Below, piece by piece: positions 6,601 through 25,935 of a stretch of 64,000 bases of DNA. A program made the translations under genes and the position numbers. The stretch is taken from positions 62,001-126,000 of the forward strand of contig JADZAI010000103.1 of assembly GCA_020852655.1 (NCBI GenBank), read 5' to 3'. The stretch is from Alphaproteobacteria bacterium. Lineage in GTDB: Bacteria; Pseudomonadota; Alphaproteobacteria; Micropepsales; Micropepsaceae. Numbering within the stretch: position 1 is the stretch's first letter; each line of letters starts with the position of its first letter. A model generated the notes under the pieces. It was not told where the DNA came from, did not search any database, and was given only the letters and a program-made list of their open reading frames with translations.

Positions 6601-7077
6601 CTGTGCGCCATGGCCGGGCGAGAGGGTGTCGCGTCGGCCGGCTGCGTCGGAGTCGCCGAGGTCATCGCCGGGAAGAACCGATATTTCGAACTTCAGTCCG
6701 CCGGACTTTTCGGAACCGTAACCGGCGAAGACACGGCCGAATTTTTCTCCGCCAATGTGCAGGCCGCCCTGCCCTTCGCGACCTATCCCGTCGCGGCCAA
6801 TACGCCGGGCTTCTTCATGGTGCCGCGTGCGCGTTGGAGCGAACTCGGCGGATTCGACGCCGAGGTCTATCCTTCCCAGGGCGCCGAACTGGATTTTGCC
6901 CTGCGCGCGATCCGAGCCGGCGGAACGCATCTGTGCACCTCCGCCATCACCGCGACCGTCGAACTCGACCGTCCGCCGCCGAACCGTGCGCCGGCCCGCA
7001 CCGTCAAGTCGCTGAGCGCGTCCGACGTCGCCGCGCTGCGTGCCGCCTCCACCATCGTCACGGAATTGCACGGATGA
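3607..7077 (+). CDS. Large glycosyltransferase with eight WYL..YPDV repeats
   Basis: Protein of 1156 residues. Residues about 30-298 and 401-477 hold four double units (eight copies of about 35 residues) with the pattern WYL..YPDV....NPL.HYL..G..EGR. An Ala/Lys/Pro-rich linker (about 300-400) separates the third and fourth doubles. Residues about 480-890 are unrecognised. The C-terminal 895-1130 resembles a divergent family 2 glycosyltransferase, starting VSVIVPL and carrying the late GGFDAE..P..GAELDFALR block. The frame is open back to 2410, but that part overlaps kdsD in another frame; the ATG at 3607 fits. Its stop overlaps the next start (ATGA). Such repeats are known next to glycosyltransferases of rhizobial-type polysaccharide loci; their role is not known to me. 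Confidence 0.82.
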   Translation: MAFWKRIQRQLVGGSSGASPRDLALVAASGLFDREWYLAQYPDVRASSGDPIAHFVGNGGREGRDPGPKFSTRAYLARYPEVAGSGLNPLLHYLRTGQSEGRQIEPSDRAEKAPDENIPLLHKSDLFDAKWYRTQYPDIAAAGIDPAAHYLASGANEGRDPGPHFSTAWYLTEHKDIAATGANPLVHYLLSGKDEGRAIAPAGSAPGVAVPGILAEVTLVATSDLFNRAWYLSHYADIAEAEVDPATHYTRQGYKEGRDPGPRFSTSWYLNENKDVARAGLNPLVHYLRVGKAEGRPSGPNLAGLKLNAAERARMLTAASVAGGAAAERKPEAAAAKKPDGQTRTVPPKAGAAKGEASKPKPAPARSTPAARPEAVAKKPVAPQQAVVAAPAVSDAMLLATSEWFDSEWYLAQYPETATSGLDPVAHYLELGVVEGRDPGPRFSTKWYLAEYPDVAGAGHNPLVHYLKNGKSEGREIAPSPRGVGLTAGKAAPPLSFARKPPTMPAAIAWQRDLDAAAGIQIGGVALGTLGDDTSAWAASVAAVLRSFARLARVESEALPEAEAQTVVLRAAAKPSHLGDAWYINAFDMRLRFLPSQEKGVARAYQYAVASATLMLIGEAFVGAAGGYLDIAPGNPFCPILTTFSDTDGTLTAVEILPFPSLSRGGLHYGEACAQSGNAGYLADLRTLSDRLTQRWLERPAPALAHVAVDITRAVGAEPIFQPAIREWLGAIMATPLEATGTPQKAVVGEYLRGALSTEVTARKAAESDNHPRAVLTIPGDAIPTISAMIGEVGCPNADAIGAFIVADNLTAVPKWQIALPPDAGLRDLQPGPADFPVLSWPSAAANDTAAEVRIPLAIRFLSGAPLSEAELVLPAATRWTAAALSRRGEEAADNSVSVIVPLGQLPARAFANFIESLKQQTAPATEVIVVSHGAQADLAAMRAQLARQFPGRYFVLEHGGEIAASRRVNMAAAMASGRFLLFAQGLPLLQDPRTLEVLCAMAGREGVASAGCVGVAEVIAGKNRYFELQSAGLFGTVTGEDTAEFFSANVQAALPFATYPVAANTPGFFMVPRARWSELGGFDAEVYPSQGAELDFALRAIRAGGTHLCTSAITATVELDRPPPNRAPARTVKSLSASDVAALRAASTIVTELHG

Positions 7078-8618
7078 AGATCTGCGTCCTGATCCCGAAC
7101 GAGGACGCACTCGCCCAGGCCGGCGTTCGCATCCGCTACGGCCGCATTCAGCAGATTCTCGCCGCCCAAGGCCATGAGCTGAGCATCCAGGCGATCGATT
7201 CCTTCGCGACGCGCGCGCAATTCGTCCACGATGCCTACATCGTCAGCAAGGTCTACGATTCGCGCTCACTGGTCGTCGCGAGGCTGCTTGCCGGCACATC
7301 GATCCTGGTCGGCGCCGATCTTTTCGACGATTACTTCACGCAGCTCAACGACACGCGGCTCGTCCGCTTCCAGCAATGGATGCAGGCTTTCTGCGCATCG
7401 GCGAATTTCATGCTGTGCTCGACGCCTGCCATGCAGGATGTCGCCGGACAGTTCGCGCCGGGTGCGCCGAACCTCGTCATGAACGACCCCTCGCCGCCGG
7501 TCACTTCAGAAGCGATCGAGGCCGCCGCCGTCCGCAAGCTCGAAGAAGCGCGCGCGACCCGCACCCTGCGCATCGGCTGGTTCGGCGTCGGCGACAACCC
7601 GTATTTCGACGTCGGACTCTACGACCTTGCGCATTTCAGCGATGCGCTAGCCAAGCTGCGCGGGCGGGGTTTCGACGTGCAGCTCAGCATCCTTACGAAC
7701 CGCCGCGCACTCACGCCGGCCAACCTCGCGATGCTCGCGCGCCTTCCTGTGCCCTATGACATCGCGGAATGGAGCGAGGCCGCCGAACGCAAGCTGATCG
7801 AAGAGAGCCTCGTCTGCTTCCTGCCGGTGAACGGACAGAATTTCAGCATCGCGAAGTCGCTGAACCGCGCGGTATCGAGCCTCTCGGCCGGCACGCAGGT
7901 TCTTTCGCCGGGCTATCCGCTCTACCGGCCACTCGGCGATTTCGTCTACCGCAACGCCGATGCCTTTGCGGCCGACCTCGGCGCCGGCACGCTCGCCATC
8001 CGGCCGGAAACGATGCCGGGCCTGATGAATGTCCTGAAGTCCTGGGCCGACCCGGACGAGGAGGCGACTCGCTTCATCTCCTTCTTCGAGCGTATCCATC
8101 CCCGCACGCCGCCGACGCCGCCCAAGGAGGGCGTCCCGCCGACGGCAGCCGTGATCCACGGCCAGCGGTCCTCGGCCGACGCGCATAAATTCGCGCAGCG
8201 CCTGCGCATGCTGTCGGTCTCCAGCCCCTTCTGCCGGCTGAAGCTGAATTTCGATGCCCGCTTCGAATTCACCAGCGAAGGCGCCGTCGCCGCCTATGTC
8301 GCGGAGAAGTGGACGCTGCGCCTGCCCCGCCGCTCGCTCTCGGTGCTGAGCGATCACGGCCGCATCCTCGACACGGCCTATACGAAGGTCGACCTGGAGA
8401 AGATTCCCGGCAACCCGAATTTCGCGGCGGCCGGCCTCGGCCGCGCCAACACACTCGCATCGGTGACGGCGAGCTACCCCTCGACGATGGCCGACATCGA
8501 GAAGGTGCTCTCCTTCGTCTTCCCCGGCGTCGTCTCCTACTACTCCGAAAACGCGCGCCTGCCCTGGCGCGCGACCCAACAGGCGGCATCGGTCATGCTC
8601 GAGCGTCAGGCATCATGA
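7074..8618 (+). CDS. Glycosyltransferase, probable GT4-like
   Basis: Protein of 514 residues, cytosolic. It begins MKICVLIPNEDALAQAGVRIR, the usual first strand and glycine turn of a GT-B enzyme, and has a second Rossmann-like start at RIGWFGVGDNPYFD (about residue 163). The late S-AKSLNRAVSSLSAGTQVLSP stretch (about 259-280) resembles the sugar-nucleotide site of GT4 enzymes. The last 170 residues are not recognised. It is translationally coupled at both ends by ATGA overlaps, so the three large proteins are made together and may act in sequence on one glycan. The family call is moderate; the substrate cannot be told. Confidence 0.75.
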   Translation: MKICVLIPNEDALAQAGVRIRYGRIQQILAAQGHELSIQAIDSFATRAQFVHDAYIVSKVYDSRSLVVARLLAGTSILVGADLFDDYFTQLNDTRLVRFQQWMQAFCASANFMLCSTPAMQDVAGQFAPGAPNLVMNDPSPPVTSEAIEAAAVRKLEEARATRTLRIGWFGVGDNPYFDVGLYDLAHFSDALAKLRGRGFDVQLSILTNRRALTPANLAMLARLPVPYDIAEWSEAAERKLIEESLVCFLPVNGQNFSIAKSLNRAVSSLSAGTQVLSPGYPLYRPLGDFVYRNADAFAADLGAGTLAIRPETMPGLMNVLKSWADPDEEATRFISFFERIHPRTPPTPPKEGVPPTAAVIHGQRSSADAHKFAQRLRMLSVSSPFCRLKLNFDARFEFTSEGAVAAYVAEKWTLRLPRRSLSVLSDHGRILDTAYTKVDLEKIPGNPNFAAAGLGRANTLASVTASYPSTMADIEKVLSFVFPGVVSYYSENARLPWRATQQAASVMLERQAS

Positions 8619-10843
8619 TCAACCATGCCTTCTTCCTGCTGAACCTCGTCCAGGACGTGAACATCGTCCGGCCGCTGGTTTTCATGACAGCGCGGGATTT
8701 CGGCGCGCCGACGACACTGCTTGTCTCCCGCGACTTCATCCACCGCGACAAGTTCGGCATCTGGCAGGAAGAGATCGAGGAACTGCGCAAAGAGACCGGC
8801 GCGCGCGTCGTCATCTTCGCCCAGGAATGGGAGGCCGCGCAGGTCATGCTGGGCAAGGCCGGCCTTCTGGTCGCCGCCAGCGAATCCGCCCTCTCGGCCC
8901 ATACGCTGACGCACAACGTGCTGCGCCAGGCCCCACCCGGCTTCGTGAAGATCACGCTCCAGCACGGCTTTGAGTGCGTCGGCTTCCTTCAGAGCAAGGA
9001 TCACATCCTCGCCCACGGTCTCGGCGTCACCTTCGGCGCCGATATCGTCTGCGGCTGGTGCGAGCGCGAGCGGCTGACCTCGATGACGCCGTCGCAGGCC
9101 TCGAAGCTCTATGTCTCCGGCCCCCCCTTCGTGCTGCAACAGCGCAAGTCGGACGAGGCGCCGTTCCCCAGCCCCGTCGGCCTCGTCGCCGAGAATCTCC
9201 ACTCCGTGCGCCTGAACATCCAGGGCGACTTCAAGCAGGACTTCGTCCAGGTTTTCTCGGACTTCTGTGCCGAGATGGCGAAGGAGAATCTGATCGTCGC
9301 GCTGCGCCCGCACCCCGGCGGCCAGTATGTGCTGAAGAACAACGTCGTGATGCCGCGCAATGCGGTCATCAACAACAACCCGATCTACAAGGTCGACCTG
9401 TCGCGCTACGCCTACGGCATCTCGGCGCCATCCTCGGTCATCATCGACATGGTGGCCGCCGGCATTCCGACCGCCGTCTGGACCGACGCCGGCGGGACGA
9501 TGGATGCCGGCAACTACACCGGCCTCACGACGATCAGCACGCTCGACCAGTGGGTCGATTTCAGCAAGCGCGCCGTCGCCGAACCCCAATATTTCCTGGA
9601 CCAGCAGGCCGATTTCCTGCGCAACCAGCAGATGCCGGTCGACCCGGAAGACGTCTACAAGCGCTTCGCCGATCTGTTCGAACCGATCCTGCGCCCGGCG
9701 CGCAAGCCCGTGGTCGCGGGCGGCCCGGCCGAGCGCGTGATGTTCGTCGCCAACGGTCTCGTGCCGACGCTCCAGCTCAGCTTCCTCAAGCCCTTGCGCG
9801 CGCTCGTCGAGGCGGGCGAGATCGCGACCGGCTTCCTCACCGAAAGCGACATGCAGGAGCGCTTCGGCAACAGCCTGCATGACGAATCTGTCGGCGACTG
9901 GGCCGAGCAGCGGCTGTCGCAGTTCAAGCCGACCATGCTGGTGTTCTGCCGTTACAGCGGCCCACACTTCGAGGTGATGGCGGACTGGGCGCGCCGCAAC
10001 GACGTGCCGATGGTCTACCAGATCGACGACGACCTTTTGACCATTCCGCCGGATATCGGCCTCGGAAAGTTCAACCTGCACAACAATCCGAAACGCCTGG
10101 CTTCGGTGCGTCACCTGCTCGACACCGTCGACATCGTCTATTGCTCGACCGCGCGCCTGGAGGCCCGCATGCGTGAGCTCGGCGTGACGACGCCGATCGT
10201 CGTCGGCAATATCTACGCGTCGGGCGAAGTGATCCGCCAGGCCGAAGACCGCCCCGTGCGGCGCATCGGCTATATGGCGAGCGCCGACCATGCGCATAAC
10301 CTCACGATGATCCTGCCGGCGATCGTCGAATTCCTGCGCGCCAACCCCGAGGTCGGTTTCGAACTCTTCGGCTCGATCCCGAAACCTCCCGAGCTGGAAG
10401 AGTTCGGCGAGCGCATCACCTCGGCACCGCCGATCCGCAACTATGACCAGTTTCTGCAAGGTTTCGCCGAGCGCAGCTGGGACGTCGGCATCTGCCCGCT
10501 CGTCGCCATCCCCTTCAACCTGATGAAGGCGAACACGAAGTGGGTGGAATACACCGCCGTCGGCGCCGCCGTCGTGGCGAGCGCCGGCACGGTCTATGAC
10601 GAAGGCTGCGCCGACGATTGCGGCGTGCTCGCCGACACGACCGAGGAATGGCGCGCCGCCCTCCAGGCTTTCGCCGACGATCCGGGCGCACGCTTCGCCA
10701 TGGTCTCCCGCGCGCAGGAGAAGCTCCGTTCGTCTTACTCTCTCGACGAACTGCGTGCGCAGGTTTTGAAGCTGTTTGCAGACGTGCGCGCCAAGGCGGC
10801 GGAGCGCGATCAGGCACCGGCGCTTCGGGCCGCCGCCGAGTAG
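8615..10843 (+). CDS. Two-domain glycosyltransferase-type protein
   Basis: Protein of 742 residues built from two GT-B-like halves. The N-terminal half (1 to about 365) has LRPHPGG near residue 229 and a GISAPSSVIIDMVAAGIP block, both typical of CDP-glycerol glycerophosphotransferase or capsule polysaccharide-processing proteins. The C-terminal half (about 375-742) resembles GT4 glycosyltransferases: a QIDDDL segment, a RRIGYMAS strand start, and a late NTKWVEYTAVGAAVVAS acceptor/donor loop. Last gene of the kdsD run, coupled to the previous one by ATGA. Fusion of two transferase-like domains suggests two consecutive additions by one protein; this is inference. Confidence 0.8.
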   Translation: MINHAFFLLNLVQDVNIVRPLVFMTARDFGAPTTLLVSRDFIHRDKFGIWQEEIEELRKETGARVVIFAQEWEAAQVMLGKAGLLVAASESALSAHTLTHNVLRQAPPGFVKITLQHGFECVGFLQSKDHILAHGLGVTFGADIVCGWCERERLTSMTPSQASKLYVSGPPFVLQQRKSDEAPFPSPVGLVAENLHSVRLNIQGDFKQDFVQVFSDFCAEMAKENLIVALRPHPGGQYVLKNNVVMPRNAVINNNPIYKVDLSRYAYGISAPSSVIIDMVAAGIPTAVWTDAGGTMDAGNYTGLTTISTLDQWVDFSKRAVAEPQYFLDQQADFLRNQQMPVDPEDVYKRFADLFEPILRPARKPVVAGGPAERVMFVANGLVPTLQLSFLKPLRALVEAGEIATGFLTESDMQERFGNSLHDESVGDWAEQRLSQFKPTMLVFCRYSGPHFEVMADWARRNDVPMVYQIDDDLLTIPPDIGLGKFNLHNNPKRLASVRHLLDTVDIVYCSTARLEARMRELGVTTPIVVGNIYASGEVIRQAEDRPVRRIGYMASADHAHNLTMILPAIVEFLRANPEVGFELFGSIPKPPELEEFGERITSAPPIRNYDQFLQGFAERSWDVGICPLVAIPFNLMKANTKWVEYTAVGAAVVASAGTVYDEGCADDCGVLADTTEEWRAALQAFADDPGARFAMVSRAQEKLRSSYSLDELRAQVLKLFADVRAKAAERDQAPALRAAAE

Positions 10844-10845
10844 GT

Positions 10846-11508
10846 TCAGCCGCGTTTGATGAAGTGCATCATGGACCCCGTCGGGTAGGTCCAGTGACTC
10901 GCGAGAATGTAGGGCGAGCGCAGCATCTGTACCTCGTGCGCGCGCGTGAAGTCGATCACGGCATCCATGACCTCGCAGCCCGCGTAGCAGTCGTGCAGGA
11001 GCACGCTGCCGCCCGGCGCCAGCAGGTCGTACCAGTTCTTCATGTCGCGCATGCACCCGTCATACGAATGGTCGCCGTCTATGAAGAGCACGTCGAAGAG
11101 GCCGACCTCGGGGTAGCGCTTGTTCTGGGAGTCGCCGACGATCAGGCGGATGTCGGCCTCGATCTTGGCCTTGGCGAGCACCTTCTTCAGCCGCTCGTCG
11201 TCCTGCGGGGCGATGTCGACGGACCAGATCGGCACGCGGGGGTTGGCACATCCCATCAGGAAGGTGCTGCCGCCGTTGAAGCGGCCGATCTCGACGATGC
11301 CTTGCTTCGCGCGCTCGGCGACGATGAAGAGATACTCGCCCTCCCAGGGATCGAGGCGAATGAACTCCTGGGGAATCTCGGCTTTGGCCGCGAGGAAATG
11401 AATCCTCTTGTTGCGGCTCGTCTTCGCCCACGCCGTGTCGATGGGCGAATTGATGTGCTTGCGGCGGAAACCGCCGGAAAACCGTTCCAGAAACTCGCTC
11501 AGCTTCAC
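10846..11508 (-). CDS. Class I SAM-dependent methyltransferase (Methyltransf_24 type)
   Basis: Protein of 220 residues. The SAM-binding motif is VEIGRFNGGST, the acidic loop IWSVDIAP follows, and the LFIDGDHSYDG block with a later LLHDCY is characteristic of the Methyltransf_24/cephalosporin hydroxylase-like group often found in polysaccharide loci, where members methylate sugars. It ends tail-to-tail two bases from the preceding glycosyltransferase and stands at the downstream end of a leftward block. The substrate is probably a glycan hydroxyl, by context only. Confidence 0.85.
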   Translation of the reverse strand: MKLSEFLERFSGGFRRKHINSPIDTAWAKTSRNKRIHFLAAKAEIPQEFIRLDPWEGEYLFIVAERAKQGIVEIGRFNGGSTFLMGCANPRVPIWSVDIAPQDDERLKKVLAKAKIEADIRLIVGDSQNKRYPEVGLFDVLFIDGDHSYDGCMRDMKNWYDLLAPGGSVLLHDCYAGCEVMDAVIDFTRAHEVQMLRSPYILASHWTYPTGSMMHFIKRG

Positions 11509-11587
11509 GCAAGACCCCTTGCCGCCCGAACGCGCAGCTTAGCGCAAGCCGGCAGCCATTGGCACAAGCCTTTGCAGGCAGCTCCGC

Positions 11588-12346
11588 TCAGCCGGTGAAG
11601 TGCGACCGTTCGAGGCTGAGCCGGCCCCAGGTCTGGTCCGACGTGCCGATTTCCGGCACCCACATCATCAGATTTCGGCCTCCGGTCGGATAGGAGCCGG
11701 GCTCCACGCCGTGAAAGGAATTGTCGGTCTTCACGAACACAAAGAGCGAATTCGGCACGTTCGAAAACGTGCGAAGGAGGTCGAACTTCTCATGCCTGAA
11801 ATGCGGTGAGCGCCAGGCGGTGAAGCCGCGTTCCTTCGGCCGGTAGATGCTGGTGCCGAAGGCGGCAAAGCGATCGTCGCCGGGCAGGTAGAAGATCGCC
11901 GTGATGAACTTGTTCACAGCGTCGGTGTGCGGGCCGAGCGCGAAGTCGGCGTAGTCGCGCAGCAGCATCGTGCGCGAGCCGATCGGAACGCTCTCGCCCT
12001 CCGCCGTGCGGGCGATCTGCGATGCGCGGTGGGCAGCGGAGATCGGCAGGAGATGGCCGAACTTCGCGACCATCGCGTCCAGGAAGTCCTGCGAATTCAC
12101 GAGTCGCTCGATGCGGCGCCACATCCCGCCGATGGCTTTCGCGTTGCCGGGGTCCAGATTGAGGAAAAGCCGTGCTTCATAGGGTGCGGGATAGGTGTCG
12201 AAGCGCCTGTCTTCCGGCAGTTCGCGAAGCATCTGCGCATAGGTGTCGGAGGGAAACACATCGCGCACATAGCAATGCGGAAACGGATCGGCTTCGATCT
12301 CTGCCTGCGCGATGCGCGCGACGACATGCGCCTTGAGCTTCTGCAT
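11588..12346 (-). CDS. 2OG-Fe(II) oxygenase family protein
   Basis: Protein of 252 residues with the double-stranded beta-helix signature of iron/2-oxoglutarate oxygenases. His140 and Asp142 (in GPHTDA) and His212 (in NSFHGVEP) form the metal triad, and Arg224 (GGRNLMMW) is placed to bind 2-oxoglutarate. The N-terminal FPHCYVRDVFPSDTYAQM resembles prolyl-hydroxylase-like proteins in sugar clusters. Cytosolic, no signal peptide. Its place between methyltransferase, beta-helix protein and WcbI-type genes suggests hydroxylation of a glycan or of a protein linked to it. The substrate is unknown. Confidence 0.82.
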   Translation of the reverse strand: MQKLKAHVVARIAQAEIEADPFPHCYVRDVFPSDTYAQMLRELPEDRRFDTYPAPYEARLFLNLDPGNAKAIGGMWRRIERLVNSQDFLDAMVAKFGHLLPISAAHRASQIARTAEGESVPIGSRTMLLRDYADFALGPHTDAVNKFITAIFYLPGDDRFAAFGTSIYRPKERGFTAWRSPHFRHEKFDLLRTFSNVPNSLFVFVKTDNSFHGVEPGSYPTGGRNLMMWVPEIGTSDQTWGRLSLERSHFTG

Positions 12347-13790: not shown

Positions 13791-15851
13791 TCAGGCGCGA
13801 ACCGCAGCCTTCGCCTTCTTCACCGGCTTGGCGAGGCCTTCGTCGAGCCGCTCCTCGTCGCAGATCACCGCGGCGCCCGCCTCGAACTCGGCCGACATCA
13901 GGCCCGACGGCGCCGGCTTTGCCGGGGCCGGCGCCGGGCGGGCCGGCTGCGTCATCGCCGCAGGCGTCGCCAGATTGCCGTAGTGCGACAGGAACAGCCG
14001 CATCACATGGCTCACCGCCGCCGGTTCCACCGAGCGCAGATCCTCCTCGAAATAGGCGCCGCGGGCGTGATTGCCGGTGACGATCTCGTAGGACGGGAAG
14101 TAGGCGACGTTCTCGTGCCCCTTCGCGATCTGCTCGGCCGCAACGCGCAGCACGGCCTTGCTGTAAGTGGTGGAGACCAGCACATGCCGATTTTCATAGG
14201 TCGCGACCAGCGGCACCGGCGAAACCGTCAGGATCACGCGCGCCGCCGGATTGACCTTGGCGAGTTCGGCGAGAAACGCGTTCATGTCGGCGACGACGTC
14301 TTCGACGCCGAGGTTGATGAAGCGGTATTTCGACACGTCGATCTGGTCGGTGACGACGCCCGGGGCAGTCGGGAAAACCGTTCCGTCCACGGTCGATTCC
14401 CACGTCTCGGTGAGGCCGAGCGTGAAGACGAAGACGTCGAGCCGCTCGAACATCTCGCGCACGGCGGCGAAATGGCGGTCACGATCGGCCACCAGCTTCG
14501 CTTCGCTTGCAAATCCGTCCGGTTCGACGCTCGAGCGCAGCGGATCGACGAATTTGCCGTCCGGACGGCGCCAGATCGAATCGACCGGCGTGCGGCTGCG
14601 ATAGGCGTGCTGGATCAGCTGGAGCAGCTGGCGCGAGGTATAGATGTTGCCGTAGCGCGCCGAGAACAGGCCGTACTGGCGTTCCGCCTTAGCCTCCTCG
14701 CTCATCCCCTTCGAACCGGGCTCGGCGACGTAGTAGTTGTATCCGCTGCCCTTCAGTGCCCGCGCGATGTGCTGGGCAAAGCAACTGCCGGCGGTCGCGA
14801 CCCTGGTGTCGCGCGCGATCGTGAAGACCGGCCGCACGACGGGATCGACCTCTTCTCGCGCCGGCCCGGCGACGGCGTTGCGCCAGAACTGATAGTCGGG
14901 CAGCCCGCGATAGGGATTGGTGGTCGAGCGCGGCGGTGCAGCCGGCCGGCGCTTGCGCTCGTCCAGCACCTCGTCGAGCCTCAGGAAGCGCTTGTCGTTG
15001 AACCGCTGGCAGACGAGCGCGTCGGGGTTTTTCAGCTCACCATAGGTCGTGTAGGACGAAGCGAGATAGGCGTCGAGCTCCATCACCTTGCGGCTTTCGC
15101 CCATCTTCTTGGCACCGTTGCCCGTCTTGAAGATGAAGCTGCCGCGCAGTCCGATATTTTCGGCGACGCCGGGATAGACCGGCCACACGATGTTGTCGAC
15201 CAGCCGGTCGCTCATCACGTCTTCCGGGTTCAGCGCGAGAGGCTTTGCGCCGATCAGTCCGGTGAGCTTGCGCGCCATGTCGGCGAGCACGAGCAGCTTG
15301 GGATGGTTGACGATGTGCATGAACGGCTTGCGGGCGGCCCAGCCGTCGAACAAATCGTCCAGCGGCAGGTCGGTGTTGCGCGCCGATTCGAGAAGAAGCG
15401 TGCGGCCTTCCTCCCAGTAGTCGAGATAGCCGAGCCGCCGGAAGACGTCCGGCGTGAACAGCTCTTTCACCTCGTCCAGCGGTACGCCCTTCTTCCAGGC
15501 ATAGAGCGCGATCGCGGAGGTCAGCCCACCGGTCGCGCCGCCGAGCTGCTGGCCCTCGTGGAAGGCATAGACCGCGTCGGGATGGAGACCCATGAAGTAG
15601 ATCGCGGGCACGGTGCGGATCGTACCCTTCCAGCCCTGGTTCTCGGCCTCGGCGCGCAGCGTCGGGGCCATCTGCGGCTGCGTGAATATCTGTCCGACGT
15701 CGGCGAAGAGGCCTGCCACCGCGCCCTTCTGGCGCACGAAAGGCCCCCACATCTGGGAGACGATCGCGCGGTCGGGAAGCATCAGGCTGAGACAGTCGGC
15801 GATGATCGGCATCTGACAATTGCCGACCAGCAGGATCTTGTTTCCGCTCAT
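13791..15851 (-). CDS. WcbI-like domain fused to GSCFA domain
   Basis: Protein of 686 residues combining two families. The N-terminal part starts ILLVGNCQMPIIADCL, the hallmark of WcbI-type capsule proteins (putative acetyltransferases), with a GLHPD block near residue 90. Residues about 340-600 are a GSCFA domain: ATAGSCFAQHIARAL, then NIYTSRQLLQL, FTLGLTETW and TVSPVPL. The GSCFA family belongs to the wider SGNH-like group. The last 60 residues are Ala/Pro/Lys-rich and probably disordered. No signal peptide, so it acts in the cytosol. The two domains together suggest acyl transfer on, or removal from, glycan precursors. Confidence 0.85.
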   Translation of the reverse strand: MSGNKILLVGNCQMPIIADCLSLMLPDRAIVSQMWGPFVRQKGAVAGLFADVGQIFTQPQMAPTLRAEAENQGWKGTIRTVPAIYFMGLHPDAVYAFHEGQQLGGATGGLTSAIALYAWKKGVPLDEVKELFTPDVFRRLGYLDYWEEGRTLLLESARNTDLPLDDLFDGWAARKPFMHIVNHPKLLVLADMARKLTGLIGAKPLALNPEDVMSDRLVDNIVWPVYPGVAENIGLRGSFIFKTGNGAKKMGESRKVMELDAYLASSYTTYGELKNPDALVCQRFNDKRFLRLDEVLDERKRRPAAPPRSTTNPYRGLPDYQFWRNAVAGPAREEVDPVVRPVFTIARDTRVATAGSCFAQHIARALKGSGYNYYVAEPGSKGMSEEAKAERQYGLFSARYGNIYTSRQLLQLIQHAYRSRTPVDSIWRRPDGKFVDPLRSSVEPDGFASEAKLVADRDRHFAAVREMFERLDVFVFTLGLTETWESTVDGTVFPTAPGVVTDQIDVSKYRFINLGVEDVVADMNAFLAELAKVNPAARVILTVSPVPLVATYENRHVLVSTTYSKAVLRVAAEQIAKGHENVAYFPSYEIVTGNHARGAYFEEDLRSVEPAAVSHVMRLFLSHYGNLATPAAMTQPARPAPAPAKPAPSGLMSAEFEAGAAVICDEERLDEGLAKPVKKAKAAVRA

Positions 15852-17782: not shown

Positions 17783-17865
17783 GCCCCGCCAGCCCCGAAC
17801 GCACCGCTTGTTGCTGCAGTGCGGCATGATAAGACATTTGCGACAGTTTGAGTTTCGAGGGCGGT

Positions 17866-18861
17866 ATGGCGGTCGACACGTTGGATCCTGCGGCAAAGGC
17901 GGCGCGCAAGGCCGAAAAGCTCAAGCGGCTTTCCGGTGACGCGTCCGACGGCGCCGTTCCGGGAGGGATTCCGGACGACATCCAGCGCGGCCTCGACGCG
18001 ACCTCGGCCTTCTTCGAGCGTGCGGTCTTCATCGCCGGCATGGGCCGCAGCGGCACGACGCTGCTGCTTCGGCTGATCGATGGCCATCCGGAGGTGTTCC
18101 TCGTCCCGCATGAGTCCATGGTGTTCACCCATTTCCTCGCGTCCTTCCGCAACAAGGGCGACGTGAAGGCGGTGGCGGACGGCGTCACCCAACGCTTCGG
18201 CAAGATGATGACCGACAAGGGTCATCTCGCCGAGGGCAAGGAATTCCTGCACCGGTCGCTGCCCGTCCGCCTGCGGGGCAAGGAAAAGCTGGGCCGCGCG
18301 GTCTTCCGCGACCTGCTCGCCTGCCTGACCCTCGAGCACAGTCCGGCCGACAAGCGCATGTGGCTGGAGAAGACGCCCAAGAACGAAGTCCATCTGGCCG
18401 AGATTTTCGAGAATTTCCCGAAGGCGAAGGTCATCTTCAACATCCGCGACCCCCGCGCCGTCTATGCGTCGAACGTGAAGGGCAATGTCCGCAACACCAC
18501 GCCCGCCGGCGTCGCGCATAGCTGGGCCCAGAGATTGAATCTCATGCTCGACTTCCTCGCCGCCAATCCCGGCCGGCGCGAACGTGTCTTCTTCACCCGC
18601 TACGAGGATTACGTCGGCCGCCCGGACTACGAGATTCCGCGCATGCTGAATTTCCTTGGCATCGATCCGAATGTCGAGCTCAAGCCGACCTTTCACGGCG
18701 AATCCTGGTCCGGCAATTCCTACGATGCCAAGGCCAACACGCCGGGGAAGATCGACGACAAGAAGATCAACGCCTGGCGCAACGAGATTTCGGCCGAAGA
18801 CGCGGCGATCATCGCGCGCGAAGCGGCGTTCGAAATGTCGCTGGTCGGCTACAAGGATTGA
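17866..18861 (+). CDS. PAPS-dependent sulfotransferase family protein
   Basis: Protein of 331 residues. The 5'-phosphosulfate-binding loop GMGRSGTT is at residues 58-65 and the 3'-phosphate-binding stretch VIFNIRDPRAVYAS at about 190-203, the two defining motifs of PAPS sulfotransferases. FTRYEDYVGRP and a late LNFLGID follow as in bacterial carbohydrate/tyrosyl sulfotransferases. Cytosolic, no signal. Start at the ATG at 17866 behind GAGGG; a TTG at 17848 is in frame but less likely. PAPS supply is encoded 5 kb away (cysD, cysNC) together with the PAP phosphatase cysQ, which suggests it sulfates the locally made glycan. Confidence 0.88.
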   Translation: MAVDTLDPAAKAARKAEKLKRLSGDASDGAVPGGIPDDIQRGLDATSAFFERAVFIAGMGRSGTTLLLRLIDGHPEVFLVPHESMVFTHFLASFRNKGDVKAVADGVTQRFGKMMTDKGHLAEGKEFLHRSLPVRLRGKEKLGRAVFRDLLACLTLEHSPADKRMWLEKTPKNEVHLAEIFENFPKAKVIFNIRDPRAVYASNVKGNVRNTTPAGVAHSWAQRLNLMLDFLAANPGRRERVFFTRYEDYVGRPDYEIPRMLNFLGIDPNVELKPTFHGESWSGNSYDAKANTPGKIDDKKINAWRNEISAEDAAIIAREAAFEMSLVGYKD

Positions 18862-19056
18862 GGCCTCTCGCCGGGCCGCCACGCACCAGCTTGGCCGCCC
18901 TTCCGTCATCGCCTAAGGTTGTGACACCGTGAGCAGACGGCGACCCGGGGCTGCGTTATCGCCAGCCGACGCCCGATGCGGAACCGTCGCGAGCCCCCGA
19001 GACCGTCGAATGCCCGAAATGAGCCTGCACCGTCCCGGCTGGACCCCGCCCTCCGC

Positions 19057-20778
19057 ATGAATTCCGCGATCGCAAAACCTCTGCCGTCCCGCGACAGCGC
19101 GACCGTCATCGACCGGATCATCCAGCGTTGGCGCGATGCGCCCGAGACGCCGGCCTTTCACATGCGCACGCCGCAGGGCGACCGGACGATCACGCGCGCC
19201 GACGTCCTGTCGCGCAGTCATCAATGGGCCGAGCATTACCGCCGCAATGGTCTGAAGCGCGGCGACCTCGTCATCGTGCTGATCGACTACCGGCCCGACC
19301 TCATCCACGCCTTCGTCGGCGCGATGATCGCCGGCTGCATCCCCTCCTACATGCCCTACTCGACGGCCAAGCAGGACCCGGCGCTCTATCTGCGTTCGCA
19401 TGTCGAGCTCTTCCGCCGCATCAAGGCCAAGGCCGTGGTGACCGTGGAGTCCTGGCTCTCGGATTTCGGCGACGTCTTCTCGGACGAGCCGTTCGCCGTC
19501 CTGAAGGCCGAGGACTTCGCCGCGGCGCCGCCGCCTGCCCCGGCCGATCCGGGTCACTGGTCTGAGCCCGTGGGCGTCGAGGATATCGCGCTGCTCCAGC
19601 ACAGCTCGGGCACGACGAACCTGAAGAAGGGGGTCGCGCTCAGCCACCGCGCGATCCTCGCGCAGGCCGACGCCTATGGCGACGCGATCGACCTCTCGCC
19701 CGACGACATCATCGTCTCGTGGCTGCCGCTCTATCACGACATGGGCCTGATGGCCTGTTTCATCCTGCCGCTCGTGAACGGCATCCCGGTCGTTATGACC
19801 GATCCCTTCATCTGGGTGCGCGAGCCCCATCTCCTGTTCGACGCGATCGAGCAGTTCGGTGGCACGCTCTGCTGGCTGCCGAACTTCGCCTATCACCATC
19901 TCGCGCGCGTCTGCGGCGACGGCAAGCGCTACGACCTCTCGCGCATGCGCGCTTTCATCGACTGCTCGGAGCCCTGCAAGGAAGAGACCTTCCGCCTCTT
20001 CGAAGCGACCTTCGCGCCGATGGGCGTACGCCGCGGCCAGCTCCAGACCTGCTACGCGATGGCCGAGACGACCTATGCCGCGACGCAGTCGAAGATCGGC
20101 GAACCTACCCGCAGCGTCACGGCCGAGACGGCGCTCCTTGTCGATACCGGCGAGGTCAGGCTCACATCGGACGAAACCAAAGGCATGACGTTCCTCTCGG
20201 TCGGGCGGCCCCTCGACGGCACGGAAATCCGTATCGTCGACGACGCGAACCGGCCGCTCGGCGAAGGCCGTACCGGCGAGATCTCGATCAAGAGCTCCTG
20301 CCTTTTCTCCGGCTATTTCGAGCTGCCGGAGCAGACGGCCGAGGTGCTTCAGGACGGCTGGTACCGCAGCGGCGATCTCGGCTTCCTGCTGGACGGCGAA
20401 CTCTACATCACCGGCCGCAAGAAAGAGCTCATCATCGTGCGCGGCAGGAACTTCTTCGCACACGACATCGAGTATGTTGCGACCACATGTGCCGGGGTGA
20501 AGCCCGGACGCGCGGTGGCGGTCGGCGTCTTCAATGCGGCTGTCGGCAGCGAGGAAGTCGTCATCATCGCCGAAACGCAGGTGCCGAACCCGCCCGAAGC
20601 CCGCAAGATCGCCGTCGGCGTGAAGGCCGCGCTCGACGAGCGCATGGGCCTTCAGGTGCGCAGCGTCCACCTGGTCGAGCCGGGCTGGCTCATCAAGACC
20701 ACCAGCGGCAAGATCAGCCGCAAGGAAAATCTCGCGAAATACACGGCATCGACGCGTACGGGTGCTAATAAGAGTTAG
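19057..20778 (+). CDS. Fatty acyl-AMP ligase / AMP-dependent synthetase
   Basis: Adenylate-forming enzyme of 573 residues. It has the core motifs LLQHSSGTTNLKKG, a WYRSGDLGF block, GRKKELIIVRGRN (the GRN following is the pattern of fatty acyl-AMP ligases that load carrier proteins rather than CoA) and a C-terminal TTSGKISRK lysine. It should activate a fatty or other carboxylic acid as acyl-AMP and pass it to the carrier protein encoded 20 bases downstream. Start at the ATG at 19057; the frame is open further up but Arg/Pro-rich. Neighbours make an acylation cassette for a glycan or small lipid-like product. Confidence 0.88.
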   Translation: MNSAIAKPLPSRDSATVIDRIIQRWRDAPETPAFHMRTPQGDRTITRADVLSRSHQWAEHYRRNGLKRGDLVIVLIDYRPDLIHAFVGAMIAGCIPSYMPYSTAKQDPALYLRSHVELFRRIKAKAVVTVESWLSDFGDVFSDEPFAVLKAEDFAAAPPPAPADPGHWSEPVGVEDIALLQHSSGTTNLKKGVALSHRAILAQADAYGDAIDLSPDDIIVSWLPLYHDMGLMACFILPLVNGIPVVMTDPFIWVREPHLLFDAIEQFGGTLCWLPNFAYHHLARVCGDGKRYDLSRMRAFIDCSEPCKEETFRLFEATFAPMGVRRGQLQTCYAMAETTYAATQSKIGEPTRSVTAETALLVDTGEVRLTSDETKGMTFLSVGRPLDGTEIRIVDDANRPLGEGRTGEISIKSSCLFSGYFELPEQTAEVLQDGWYRSGDLGFLLDGELYITGRKKELIIVRGRNFFAHDIEYVATTCAGVKPGRAVAVGVFNAAVGSEEVVIIAETQVPNPPEARKIAVGVKAALDERMGLQVRSVHLVEPGWLIKTTSGKISRKENLAKYTASTRTGANKS

Positions 20779-20798
20779 GTCTCAGCGGGGTGGATACC

Positions 20799-21056
20799 AT
20801 GTCCGAAAACAAGCAGGTGATGGACGAACTGGTCCAGTTGATCCGTTTCACGTTCGGGGCAGATGACTCTGTTCCGGTCACGCGCGAGACGGTAGCCTTC
20901 GACATAGACGGGTGGGATTCGCTTTCGCACGCAACGCTATTGATCATGGTCGAGAAGAAATTCGGCATCCAGATCACAAATGAGGAAGGCGAGAGCCTGG
21001 ACGACGTAGGCATGCTCGCCGACTTGATAGAACGAAAGGCCGGCAAGGCCAGCTAA
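20799..21056 (+). CDS. Acyl carrier protein
   Basis: Carrier protein of 85 residues. Ser41 in GWDSLSH is the phosphopantetheine attachment site, followed by the amphipathic LLIMVEKKFGIQ helix of ACPs. The ATG at 20799 has GGGGTGG about six bases upstream; a GTG at 20790 is in frame. Placed directly after the acyl-AMP ligase and overlapping the next gene by one base (TAATG), it is most likely a dedicated carrier for that ligase rather than the fatty-acid-synthesis ACP. Confidence 0.92.
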   Translation: MSENKQVMDELVQLIRFTFGADDSVPVTRETVAFDIDGWDSLSHATLLIMVEKKFGIQITNEEGESLDDVGMLADLIERKAGKAS

Positions 21057-21967
21057 TGACGGTTGATACCAGTAGAAATTACGAGACGCTGGTCGGCCGC
21101 GACGGCTGGCTGTTCATGACGAAGATCGACGGCCTGTTCGAGAAGCACAGGGGCGAGATCACGCTTTCCGAGGCCGAACTGCGCCAGTGGCAGTTGACGC
21201 TGGAGTTGCGCCGGGGCTGGCTCAACTATCGCGGGATCAAATACGCCTTCGTCGTCGCACCCAACAAGGCGAGCATCTACACGGAGTTCCTGCCCGACGG
21301 CTATCCGATCTCGGACAAGCGTCCGCTCGTGGTGCTGAAAGACTATCTGGCGCGGAATTCCGATTTCCGCATCATCGACCCGGCCGATCACCTGCGCGCC
21401 CAGAAGGGCGGCAAGCGCGAACTCTATTACCGCACCGACGAACACTGGAACGACGTCGGCGCATTCAAGGCCTACCAATATATCCTGCGCCAATTGCCGG
21501 GGGGCACGAAGCTGGATGCCGTCGAGCGCTCACGCCTCGAGGAGAAGCCGCGCAATTTTGTCGGCGAGCTGGCCGCGGTGCTGCCGACGCCCTATCAGGA
21601 GAAGTCGTTCCAGGTCTCGATCACCGGCGCGCAGTCGTCCCTCGCCTATCGCAACAAGCCCAAGGGCCGCGGCACCGTCGAGGTGCGCCTCAGCAAGAAC
21701 ACCGCGCTGCCTAGGGCCGTGATGTTCCGCGACTCCTTCGCCTCGGCGCTCCTGCCTTACGTTGCGGAGTCTTTCAGCCGCATCGTCTCCGTGAGTTCGC
21801 GCCAGATGCTCTTCGACCTGATCGAGAGCGAGAAGCCCGACATCGTCATCACCGAGATGGTCGAACGCTATCTCGACCCGGCGCCCGACGACATCAAGAT
21901 GAAGAGCTTCGAGGATTTCTGCGGCGTGCCGCTGGCGACGATCAAGGACGTGACGCTGAAAGACTAG
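21056..21967 (+). CDS. AlgX/AlgJ-like SGNH acyltransferase-type protein without signal peptide
   Basis: Protein of 303 residues. It shows the AlgX/AlgJ pattern: GRDGWLF near the N-terminus, Asp128 and His130 in TDEHWND, and Ser227 in FRDSF, which together form the catalytic triad of these O-acetyltransferase-type SGNH proteins. The usual family members are exported, yet here no signal peptide or membrane helix is visible, and one-base coupling (TAATG) to the carrier-protein gene makes the start secure. It may transfer the acyl group from the carrier protein to a glycan in the cytosol; that role is inferred. Ends tail-to-tail with the TauE gene. Confidence 0.75.
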   Translation: MTVDTSRNYETLVGRDGWLFMTKIDGLFEKHRGEITLSEAELRQWQLTLELRRGWLNYRGIKYAFVVAPNKASIYTEFLPDGYPISDKRPLVVLKDYLARNSDFRIIDPADHLRAQKGGKRELYYRTDEHWNDVGAFKAYQYILRQLPGGTKLDAVERSRLEEKPRNFVGELAAVLPTPYQEKSFQVSITGAQSSLAYRNKPKGRGTVEVRLSKNTALPRAVMFRDSFASALLPYVAESFSRIVSVSSRQMLFDLIESEKPDIVITEMVERYLDPAPDDIKMKSFEDFCGVPLATIKDVTLKD

Positions 21968-22024: not shown

Positions 22025-22816
22025 CTAAACGACCTTCGCCCACTGTAGGCCCTGCCAGATGGCGAGGCCGATGACGACAAGGCCGACGATCCACGTCATG
22101 CGCGACGCCGGAAGCACGCGGGTGACGCGCGCCGCCAGCGGCGCGGCGATGAGGCCGCCGGCGATCAACCCCAGCACAGGCCAGAGATTCTGGGTCAGTT
22201 CGGTTGCCTGGTCCCAATGCCCCGTCAGGAGCATGGTGATGAACGAAACCGAAACGGCCACCGCCACGAAGAATTCCGCCGTATTGGTAGAGCCGATCGC
22301 GACGCGCGGCTCGACGCCCGAACCGATCAGCGTCGTGGTGACCGTCGGCCCCCAGCCGCCGCCGCCCATGGCATCCAGGAAGCCGCCGACCGTGCCGAGC
22401 GGCAGCGCGCCGCTGAAATCGCGCTTGGTCGCCGCGATGCGGACCCGCATGGAACGGGTCAGGATGATGACGCCCATGATCGCCAGATAGGTGATGATGA
22501 TCGGCTTCACCGTGTTCGGCGGGATTGTGGTCAGGACATAGGCGCCCACGACACCTCCGGTGATGCCGCCGGCGGCCAGCCAGAAAGCCAGGCGCGGCAC
22601 GGTGTTGCCGAAGCGCACATGCGCCCACGCCGAGGCCGCGCAGGTGAAGACCTTGGAGGCGTGGACGCTGGCCGAAACATTCGCCGGCGGAATGCCGAAG
22701 GCCAGCAGGAACGTCGCCGAGGTCACCCCATAGGCCATGCCGACCGCCCCATCGACCAACTGGGCGAGGAAACCCACAGCCATGAAGATGAGAAAGCTCG
22801 CGAGGGTGGGGTCCAT
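22025..22816 (-). CDS. TauE/SafE family sulfite/organosulfonate exporter
   Basis: Integral membrane protein of 263 residues with about eight hydrophobic segments and the paired family signatures GFLAQLVDGAVGMAYG near the N-terminus and GGFLDAMGGGGWGP in the middle. Family members are anion exporters (sulfite, sulfoacetate and similar). The ATG at 22816 has GGAAAG upstream; the 44 in-frame residues further up are not protein-like. Divergent from cysD, which fits removal of toxic sulfite or another sulfur anion made during sulfate use; the actual substrate is not shown by sequence. Confidence 0.88.
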   Translation of the reverse strand: MDPTLASFLIFMAVGFLAQLVDGAVGMAYGVTSATFLLAFGIPPANVSASVHASKVFTCAASAWAHVRFGNTVPRLAFWLAAGGITGGVVGAYVLTTIPPNTVKPIIITYLAIMGVIILTRSMRVRIAATKRDFSGALPLGTVGGFLDAMGGGGWGPTVTTTLIGSGVEPRVAIGSTNTAEFFVAVAVSVSFITMLLTGHWDQATELTQNLWPVLGLIAGGLIAAPLAARVTRVLPASRMTWIVGLVVIGLAIWQGLQWAKVV

Positions 22817-23134
22817 CGTGGTCTTTCCGCCGGTGGGCGAACGCAGAGTTGGGCCGCCTCCAGACAGGCGGTGGGTCGAACGGGCTGGCGCGCAGGAGCC
22901 CCCCGCGCCCGAAACCGACAACGGCCATGGAACGGCGTCCACCGTCAAGCCTTACGCCCGTCCGCGATGCCATTTCCTCCCCGCGGACGGCCCGCTTTGA
23001 CATCCGGGGCCAAGCTGACCCAAATGGCGCAAACAAGAAGAGCTGGCATCGATGCCCGGAGGGCATCGGGTTTAGTCTTTGCGTCCTTGTAGGGAGGGCG
23101 GCTAAAGGAAGGCCCGAATTGGGGAAAATCCTGC
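22817..23134. promoter_or_regulatory. Divergent intergenic region tauE-like/cysD with perfect hairpin
   Basis: A 318-base gap without a convincing gene. It must hold the promoters for the exporter and for cysD. Positions 23050-23068 form a perfect 8-bp hairpin, CGATGCCC and GGGCATCG around GGA, 67 bases before the cysD start; it could be an operator or a leader structure. I recognise no known riboswitch. Confidence 0.5.
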
Positions 23135-24034
23135 GTGTCGTTAACCCACCTCCAGCGTCTCGAAGCCGAAAGCATTCACATCATGAGGGAGGTGGTCGCG
23201 GAAGCGGAGCGCCCCGTGATGCTCTATTCGGTCGGAAAAGATTCGTCCGTGATGCTGCATTTGGCAGCCAAGGCGTTCTATCCGTCGCGTCCGCCCTTCC
23301 CGCTCCTCCATGTCGACACGACGTGGAAGTTCAAAGCGATGTACGAGATGCGGGATCGCATGTCGAAGGAGATCGGCGCCGACCTTCTCGTCTACAAGAA
23401 CCCTGAGGCGCTGGCCCAGAACATCAATCCGTTCGACCACGGATCGTCGCTTCACACCGACATCTGGAAGACGCAAGGGCTGAAGCAGGCGCTCGACCAT
23501 TACGGCTTCGACGTCGCCTTCGGCGGCGCCCGCCGCGACGAGGAGAAGTCGCGCGCCAAGGAACGCATCTTCTCCTTCCGCAACGCCGCCCATCGCTGGG
23601 ACCCCAAGGACCAGCGCCCCGAGCTCTGGCGCCTCTACAACGCCCGCAAGCACAAGGGCGAATCGATCCGCGTCTTCCCGATCTCCAACTGGACCGAGCT
23701 CGACATCTGGCAATACATCCACCTGGAGAACATCCCGATCGTCCCGCTCTATTTCTCGGCCCCGCGTCCTGTCGTGAACCGCGACGGCACGCTCATCATG
23801 GTCGATGACGAGCGCATGCGGCTGAACCCGGGGGAAACGCCCGAGGTCAAGTCGGTCCGCTTCCGCACGCTCGGCTGCTATCCGCTCACCGGCGCGGTCG
23901 AGAGCACGGCCGAAACGCTTCCCCAGATCATCCAGGAGATGCTGCTGACCTCGACCTCCGAACGCCAGGGCCGCAAGATCGACCACGATCAGGCCGCCTC
24001 GATGGAGAAGAAGAAGCAGGAGGGCTATTTCTGA
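23135..24034 (+). CDS. cysD: Sulfate adenylyltransferase subunit 2
   Basis: Small, catalytic subunit of ATP sulfurylase (299 residues, normal length), forming APS from sulfate and ATP in the cytosol. The PP-loop-type [11 protein letters not shown] is near residue 30, with [16 protein letters not shown] and [12 protein letters not shown] as in all CysD. Start is a GTG behind GGGGA; the first residues [13 protein letters not shown] match the family's usual beginning, so no internal ATG is better. The stop overlaps the cysNC start by one base (TGATG), ensuring paired production. Confidence 0.97.
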
Positions 24035-25935
24035 TGGCCCACCAGGACGCCCTCATCGCGCAGGACATCGACGCCTATCTCAAGGTCCACGAGACCAAGA
24101 GCATGCTGCGCTTCCTCACCTGCGGCTCGGTCGACGACGGCAAGTCGACGCTGATCGGCCGGCTGCTCTACGATTCGAAGATGATCTTCGAGGACCAGCT
24201 CGCAGCCCTCGAATCCGATTCCAAGACGGTCGGCACCCAGGGCGGCGCGATCGACTTCGCCCTCCTCGTCGACGGCCTCGCCGCCGAACGCGAACAGGGC
24301 ATCACCATCGACGTCGCCTATCGCTTCTTCTCGACCGAAAAGCGCAAGTTCATCGTCGCCGACACGCCCGGCCACGAACAATACACCCGCAACATGGTCA
24401 CCGGTGCCTCGACCGCCGACGCCGCCATCATCCTCATCGACGCGCGCAAGGGCGTCCTCACCCAGACGCGCCGGCACTCCTACCTCGTCAAGCTGCTCGG
24501 CATCCGTCACGTCATCCTCGCCATCAACAAGATGGACCTGGTGAACTGGTCGCGCGAGACGTTCGACAAAATCCTCGCCGACTATCGTGTCTTCGCCGAG
24601 AAGATCGGCATCACGACCTTCACCGCCATCCCCATGTCGGCGCTGAACGGCGACAACATCCTGGATCGTTCGGCGCATACACCCTGGTATGACGGACCGA
24701 CGCTGATGGGCCTGCTGGAGGTGCTGCCCGTCGAGGACGACCTCGCGGCGAAGCCCTTCCGCATGCCGGTCCAGTGGGTCAACCGCCCCAATCTCGACTT
24801 CCGCGGCTTCTCGGGCCTCGTCGCCACCGGCACGGTGAAGCGCGGCGACCAGATTCGCGCGCTTCCCTCGGCCCGCACCAGCACGGTCGAGCGCATCGTC
24901 ACCAAGGACGGCGACCTCGAGCAGGCCGTTGCAGGCCAGTCGATCACGATCACCCTCAAGGACGAGATCGACATCAGCCGCGGCGACGTCATCGTCTGCG
25001 CCAACGCACCGGCCCAGGTCGCCGACCAGTTCGAAACGACCATCGTCTGGATGGACGACCAGCCCATGCTGCCGGGCCGCGCGCTGCTCATGAAGCTCGG
25101 CGCGCGCACCGTCGGCGCCTCGATCACCGAGCCGAAATACAAGGTCAACGTCAACACGATGGAGCACGTCGCCGCCAAGCGGCTCGAGCTCAACGAGATC
25201 GGCGTCTGCAACGTATCGCTCGATACCCCGGTCGCCTTCGAAGCCTACACCGAGAGCCGCGACCTCGGCGGCTTCATCCTGATCGACCGGTTCACCAACC
25301 GCACCGCCGGCGCCGGGATGATCCATTTCGCGCTCCGCCGCAGCGAGAATATCCATTGGCAGGCGCTCGAGGTCAGCAAGGCGGCGCGCGCTTCGCTCAA
25401 GCGCCAGTCGCCAGCCGTGCTGTGGTTCACGGGGCTTTCGGGCGCCGGCAAGTCGACGATCGCCAATCTGGTCGAGAAGAAGCTGCACTCGCTCGGCCGC
25501 CACACCTATCTGCTCGACGGCGACAATGTGCGTCACGGTCTCAACCGCGACCTCGGCTTCACCGACGAGGACCGCGTCGAGAATATCCGCCGCGTCGCCG
25601 AGGTCTCGCGCCTGATGGCCGAGGCCGGACTCATCGTGCTCGTCTCGTTCATCTCGCCCTTCCGCGCCGAGCGCCGCATGGCGCGCACCCGGGTGGGCGA
25701 CGAGGATTTCATCGAGATCCACATCGACACGCCGCTGGCCGTCGCGGAGAGCCGGGACGTGAAGGGCCTCTACAAGAAGGCCCGGGCCGGCCAGCTCAAG
25801 AACTTCACCGGCATCGACTCGCCCTACGAAACGCCGGAAGCCCCGGAGCTTCGCATCGACACGACCGACCTCTCGCCCGAGGAAGCGGCCGAGCAGATCT
25901 GTGCCTATCTCCAGTCGCGGGGTAGCCATGCCTGA
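24034..25935 (+). CDS. cysNC: Bifunctional sulfate adenylyltransferase subunit 1 / adenylylsulfate kinase
   Basis: Fusion of 633 residues. The N-terminal GTPase (CysN) has [21 protein letters not shown] and NKMDL and drives APS formation with CysD. The C-terminal APS kinase (CysC) begins about residue 455, with P-loop GLSGAGKST near 466, [10 protein letters not shown], and the [10 protein letters not shown] lid, and makes PAPS. The NodQ-like fusion is common in alphaproteobacteria. PAPS here can feed sulfate assimilation or the sulfotransferase at 17866-18861. Overlaps cysQ by eight bases. Confidence 0.97.

Follow-up and report, generated by a model that had tools for sequence, protein, structure and literature searches.

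Three consecutive genes within a probable glycan cluster

The window analyzed here is a stretch of 64,000 nucleotides from an alphaproteobacterium of the family Micropepsaceae. Three consecutive genes lie on its plus strand. The first (19057..20778) encodes a fatty acyl-AMP ligase (FAAL) of 573 aa that matches the Pfam AMP-binding family with an E value of 1.5e-53; an earlier in-frame ATG of this open reading frame is found at 18976. Its nearest solved structures are the FAALs 3kxw (1.4e-78) and 3pbk (1.8e-74), both above CoA ligases, and by sequence comparison the ligase is of the FAAL type, closer to FAALs than to acyl-CoA ligases. After a gap of 20 bases follows the gene of a specialised acyl carrier protein (ACP) of 85 aa on the plus strand (20799..21056), with its ATG at 20799 and a stop codon ending at 21056. 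The Pfam PP-binding score of this protein, 15.4 bits, is below the cut-off of 20.8, and we call it a carrier because of its DSL motif and its match with 2lml (E = 7.5e-14), the closest solved carrier protein, which we take to be GmACP3, a specialised ACP from Geobacter metallireducens. Ser41 within IDGWDSLSH is the DSL serine, the phosphopantetheine site, and it is conserved in the carrier of genome G216 described below. The stop codon of the ACP gene has one base in common with the ATG of the third gene (21056..21967, plus strand), which encodes an AlgX-like SGNH protein (PF16822) of 303 aa, a probable acyltransferase that is predicted to be cytosolic. The three-gene row and its one-base coupling, described in an earlier reading made from the sequence only, are thus as reported.

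The surroundings include genes for glycan synthesis and sulfation. A sulfotransferase gene (17848..18861, plus strand; Sulfotransfer_3, 1.3e-24) is directly upstream of the cassette. A WcbI-GSCFA fusion gene on the minus strand (13791..15851; GSCFA 1.2e-54, WcbI 1.2e-20) is a second candidate for glycan acylation in the cluster. Downstream, the supply of the sulfate donor is represented by CysD, the small subunit of sulfate adenylyltransferase (23135..24034, plus strand; NCBIfam CysD, above cut-off), and a CysN-CysC fusion of sulfate adenylyltransferase and APS kinase (24034..25935, plus strand; NCBIfam PRK05506, 1076 bits). The window also encodes glycosyltransferases, methyltransferases and a PAPS-making module. 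From this gene content, the product of the cluster is likely a sulfated, acylated surface glycan.

Several other features were seen in this region. Within 22025-25935, the minus strand encodes a predicted membrane protein, TauE-like by eye and with no NCBIfam match, beside CysD and CysNC. The sulfate donor module adjoins the acylation cassette in the window, and a CysD-like gene is also near the FAAL-ACP locus of G077 (L186). An ORF of 855 aa in the glycan region (6051-8618, plus strand) has no Pfam match.

Fold, triad and location of the AlgX-like protein

The third protein of the cassette matches the Pfam family ALGX (PF16822) with an E value of 8.4e-20 and 72 bits, against a curated cut-off of 26.5. 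Asp128, His130 and Ser227, the triad proposed in the sequence-only reading, were correctly placed; they are invariant in a 42-sequence alignment, form the permuted triad of a DxH motif and a serine, and align with motifs of PatB1. The AlphaFold model has a mean pLDDT of 93.5 and a pTM of 0.92. A Foldseek search of the PDB with this model returned, at E < 0.001, solely PatB1, AlgJ, a DHHW protein and AlgX. The 11 chains have E values from 7.4e-13 to 6.3e-8, the best being 7.4e-13 for PatB1 and AlgJ, and TM-scores to the query of 0.53-0.68. In the profile alignment, the serine motif FRDSFASALLPYVAESF of the window protein corresponds to the motif KDSFANAIVPHLAQSF of PatB1.

The maximal hydropathy over 19 residues is 1.14, and the in-frame codons 5' of the ATG encode an Arg-rich rather than a hydrophobic peptide; no export is therefore predicted for the protein. 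This agrees with the earlier statement that it has neither signal peptide nor membrane helix. A C-terminal TPR region of the O-acetyltransferase-TPR (TviD) type was absent from the window protein in a Pfam search. Membership in the TviD family was also considered and rejected, because neither the window protein nor related proteins gave an NCBIfam TviD match.

The cassette in other genomes and its variable third gene

A search for conserved neighborhoods, which the sequence-only reading had suggested, recovered the FAAL-ACP-AlgX order in three other genomes (G216, G776 and G661), spread over two further families of the class. In G216 (locus L025) the genes are on the minus strand, with the FAAL at 10542-12239, the ACP at 10288-10545 and the AlgX-like protein at 8792-10291. 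G776 is a second genome of the same genus as G216. In G661 (locus L197), from another family, the AlgX-like gene is at 8499-9884 with the carrier and FAAL genes immediately upstream. The FAALs of the window and G216 are 35% identical and their carriers 39% identical. The AlgX proteins of these three cassettes carry C-terminal TPR repeats, and no separate transferase was seen beside them. Like the window cassette, that of G776 adjoins a sulfotransferase gene (L188:12200-12910; Sulfotransfer_2, 9.4e-7). The recurrence of the cassette in three other genomes indicates that the arrangement is not due to chance. A search of 60 near relatives of the window genome gave no homologue of the AlgX-like protein at E values up to 0.001, and the gene is therefore patchy in its distribution.

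We also surveyed the third slot by moving outward from FAAL genes and checking the neighboring ORFs. A stand-alone FAAL-ACP pair is accompanied by WcbI in G473, G418, G523 and G220, above the Pfam cut-off, and in G383, just below it (FAAL-ACP-WcbI loci L189, L198, L199, L201 and L184). Two of these WcbI proteins have weak TPR matches. In G177 the pair is found with a DUF2920 alpha/beta-hydrolase protein, and the same was assigned to G044 by similarity at the ORF start. A polysaccharide cluster of Mesorhizobium combines a different AMP ligase and a carrier with a GNAT acetyltransferase, some genomes have a FAAL and a carrier fused to a hexapeptide or PlsC-type acyltransferase, and one locus has a FAAL with an MBOAT and a GDSL protein. 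The third gene of the G077 locus starts with a WcbI-like GNCQ and was not counted since it has no Pfam match. Judged by gene content, acid activation and the carrier are the constant part of these loci and the transferase fold is the variable part. The acyl groups of some FAAL-ACP pairs may end up in lipids or polyketides.

In an observation apart from this survey, a Rhodobacteraceae SC52 plasmid (L183:7059-11912) encodes consecutively a carrier protein, a HAD-IIIC (FkbH-type) protein, an MBOAT and a hypothetical protein, with a sulfotransferase and a sulfate-activation gene nearby. This row is possibly another carrier-fed acylation system.

Indirectly, the best argument for assigning the transfer step to the AlgX-like protein is that other acyltransferases occur in the third slot. 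An editing or regulatory hydrolase, a thioesterase or de-O-acylase that strips acyl groups from the carrier or from the glycan, is an unlikely reading of the protein; in that case the transfer itself would fall to a different enzyme. The SGNH fold does serve esterases too, AlgJ and AlgX are acetylesterases in vitro (PMC9487903), and the WcbI-GSCFA protein is another candidate for acylation within the window. Against this, the nearest folds are those of O-acetyltransferases, and the third gene is of the transferase type in other FAAL-ACP loci, with no further transferase next to AlgX in the three other cassettes.

The FAAL-ACP-WcbI loci bear on WcbI itself. WcbI binds CoA but showed no activity alone, and another module was proposed to be necessary (PMC4104973). 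Because FAAL-ACP-WcbI loci exist, we suggest that the carrier protein could be this module. More generally, there may be an undescribed class of carrier-fed cytosolic glycan acylation systems, with a donor module of acid-AMP ligase and specialised carrier that would stay constant and a transferase (AlgX-like, WcbI, GNAT, alpha/beta hydrolase, hexapeptide or PlsC type) that could be swapped. The ACP would then be the missing partner of WcbI, and the SGNH branch of the class would consist of the helix-free AlgX-like proteins. We hold this generalization tentatively, at somewhat below even odds.

Two kinds of AlgX-like proteins

From a scan of genome contigs and from genome searches, 136 AlgX domains were collected, and an N-terminal helix was called at a hydropathy cut-off of 1.6. 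An MBOAT neighbor was found at 78 of the 86 helix-bearing loci; the other 8 have a helix with no MBOAT found. Among the 50 helix-free loci, 10 have an MBOAT neighbor, several of these being cut-short ORFs or proteins just below the hydropathy cut-off, although not each was checked. Of the remainder, 36 have no MBOAT and 4 rows have a FAAL-ACP neighbor. These 4 cassette rows represent three genomes, as G776 was sampled twice; G661 was added later. Classified by helix and neighborhood, AlgX-like proteins are of two kinds, an exported set nearly always beside an MBOAT and a helix-free set without it; the window protein belongs to the latter.

In the first tree, the AlgX proteins of G216 and G776 were on a long branch among the MBOAT partners, and the addition of G661 shifted both to the helix-free side. 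In this later tree a branch with SH-aLRT 86 has the MBOAT-linked set on one side; the four cassette proteins group with the helix-free set, although the joining branch is weak (SH-aLRT 51). A single origin for three cassette AlgX proteins was not rejected by the AU test (p = 0.36), and a four-member clade is not established.

Members of the helix-free set are found in ABC-type capsule clusters on E. coli plasmids, in polysaccharide clusters of Phyllobacterium and at other sites, and most have no FAAL or ACP nearby; loci that lack both are in Phyllobacterium, Microvirga, Methylobacterium, Agrobacterium and E. coli. Since such proteins are common, the carrier is the unusual part of the cassette. 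They would need another donor, for example acetyl-CoA. The same five taxa give some ground for a reading, in our judgment quite improbable, in which the FAAL and ACP work for a lipid- or polyketide-like pathway of their own, and the co-transcribed AlgX-like protein performs ordinary cytosolic O-acetylation from acetyl-CoA. Against it is the close-spaced or overlapping three-gene order that is kept in three other genomes with different surroundings.

Individual loci add to the range of this family. The window genome (G000) encodes on contig 43 a second helix-free AlgX-like protein of 318 aa (L031:9299-10255), with no FAAL, ACP or MBOAT nearby. At L029:8828-10408, one protein contains both a sulfotransferase domain and a helix-free AlgX-like domain. 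In the ABC-transporter polysaccharide clusters of E. coli plasmids pYLMB20b and pPSJ-12_1 (L006 and L007), the AlgX-like protein is annotated as hypothetical and has no nearby MBOAT. A viral contig (L114:7720-9810) encodes a C-terminal AlgX-like domain behind an N-terminus that is AT3 acyltransferase-like by eye. Pseudomonas phages such as JBD44 carry an MBOAT and AlgX-like pair (gp41 and gp40, L022:4301-6912), for which modification of host surface glycans is possible. We considered these phage proteins as a model for the cytosolic type, and as AlgX plus MBOAT pairs they were uninformative.

A neighborhood search found no MBOAT near the window cassette. One MBOAT was detected in the window genome, which is 91% complete; it is on another contig and is followed by a gene for a membrane-anchored protein with an N-terminal helix. 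This neighbor is likely the partner of the only MBOAT detected. The sequence-only reading would have been contradicted by homologues that are exported or always accompanied by an MBOAT; the clade of the window protein is neither exported nor MBOAT-adjacent. That the cassette works with this distant MBOAT in the manner of AlgI/AlgJ/AlgX, its AlgX-like protein being exported by an unusual route, is very improbable, because the MBOAT, although the one such gene detected in the genome, has its own membrane-anchored neighbor and because the window protein and its cassette homologues lack a signal or helix.

Proposed mechanism

We propose that the FAAL would adenylate a carboxylic acid and load the acyl group onto the carrier, on the phosphopantetheine arm attached to Ser41. 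From this thioester the AlgX-like protein would move the acyl group to Ser227, the serine of its Asp-His-Ser triad. A hydroxyl would then receive the group before export, either on a repeat unit of the surface glycan or on a nucleotide-sugar or lipid-linked precursor. All of this would occur in the cytosol, in a cluster that also makes a sulfated sugar. The activate-load-transfer route suggested earlier is supported at the level of gene content, as the order is conserved and the third slot is swapped for other soluble acyltransferases.

We estimate a probability of about 0.62 that the cassette is a cytosolic, carrier-fed O-acylation system, similar to Dlt without the membrane step. Gene identity and order, fold, triad conservation, the lack of an export signal and of a linked MBOAT, and cassette conservation were obtained by computation; carrier loading, the acyl-serine intermediate, the glycan acceptor and the nature of the acid are inferred.

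To our knowledge, the AlgX family is known solely outside the inner membrane and with a membrane partner, and SGNH glycan O-acylation has been described as requiring a membrane step in which an MBOAT or AT3 protein exports the acyl group from the cell. If our reading is true, enzymes of the AlgX fold act on the donor side of the membrane too, with a dedicated carrier as the source of the acyl group. Such a system could let bacteria attach acids besides acetate, and would provide a testable answer as to the partner needed by WcbI-type capsule enzymes.

Comparison with known systems

The sequence-only reading knew of no described pathway with this combination. Literature searches of open-licence papers likewise found no description of it; the novelty does not extend to carrier-dependent cytosolic glycan acylation as such, which is already known from LpxA and VexE. 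LpxA performs acyl-ACP-dependent acylation of a UDP-sugar in the cytosol. VexE likewise acylates a UDP-sugar in the cytosol and depends on acyl-ACP (PMC9597891). Both resemble the window proposal in this respect, but their folds are unrelated to that of the AlgX-like protein.

AlgJ and AlgX of the AlgI/AlgJ/AlgX system share Pfam family, fold and triad with the window protein. However, AlgI/AlgJ/AlgX and PatA/PatB are periplasmic systems fed by an acyl-CoA-dependent MBOAT, whereas the window protein has neither an export signal nor an MBOAT. In the Vi antigen system, whose polymer is synthesized in the cytoplasm, O-acetylation is performed by TviD, which has a TPR region at its C-terminus (PMC9597891). 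The AlgX proteins of three of the four cassettes share such a region, but the window protein does not, and the catalytic residues of TviD, Cys18 and His253 (PMC11187135), differ from Asp128/His130/Ser227. WcbI-type O-acetyltransferases occupy in other FAAL-ACP loci the slot that is AlgX-like in the window. For the carrier, GmACP3 (2lml) is the nearest solved protein.

DltA is the ligase of the Dlt system. The Dlt pathway (DltA-DltC-DltB-DltX-DltD) for D-alanylation of teichoic acid has in common with the window cassette an AMP-forming ligase, a dedicated carrier and an SGNH-fold protein with a catalytic serine (PMC12148441). Its parts include a carrier, an MBOAT, a shuttle peptide and an SGNH protein, and other MBOAT-SGNH pathways are said to be without such a carrier (PMC12148441). 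The window operon differs in that it has no MBOAT corresponding to DltB, its SGNH protein is unanchored and predicted to be cytosolic, and its ligase is of the FAAL type. By this analogy, which the sequence-only reading did not name, Dlt is the closest working analogue of the window cassette.
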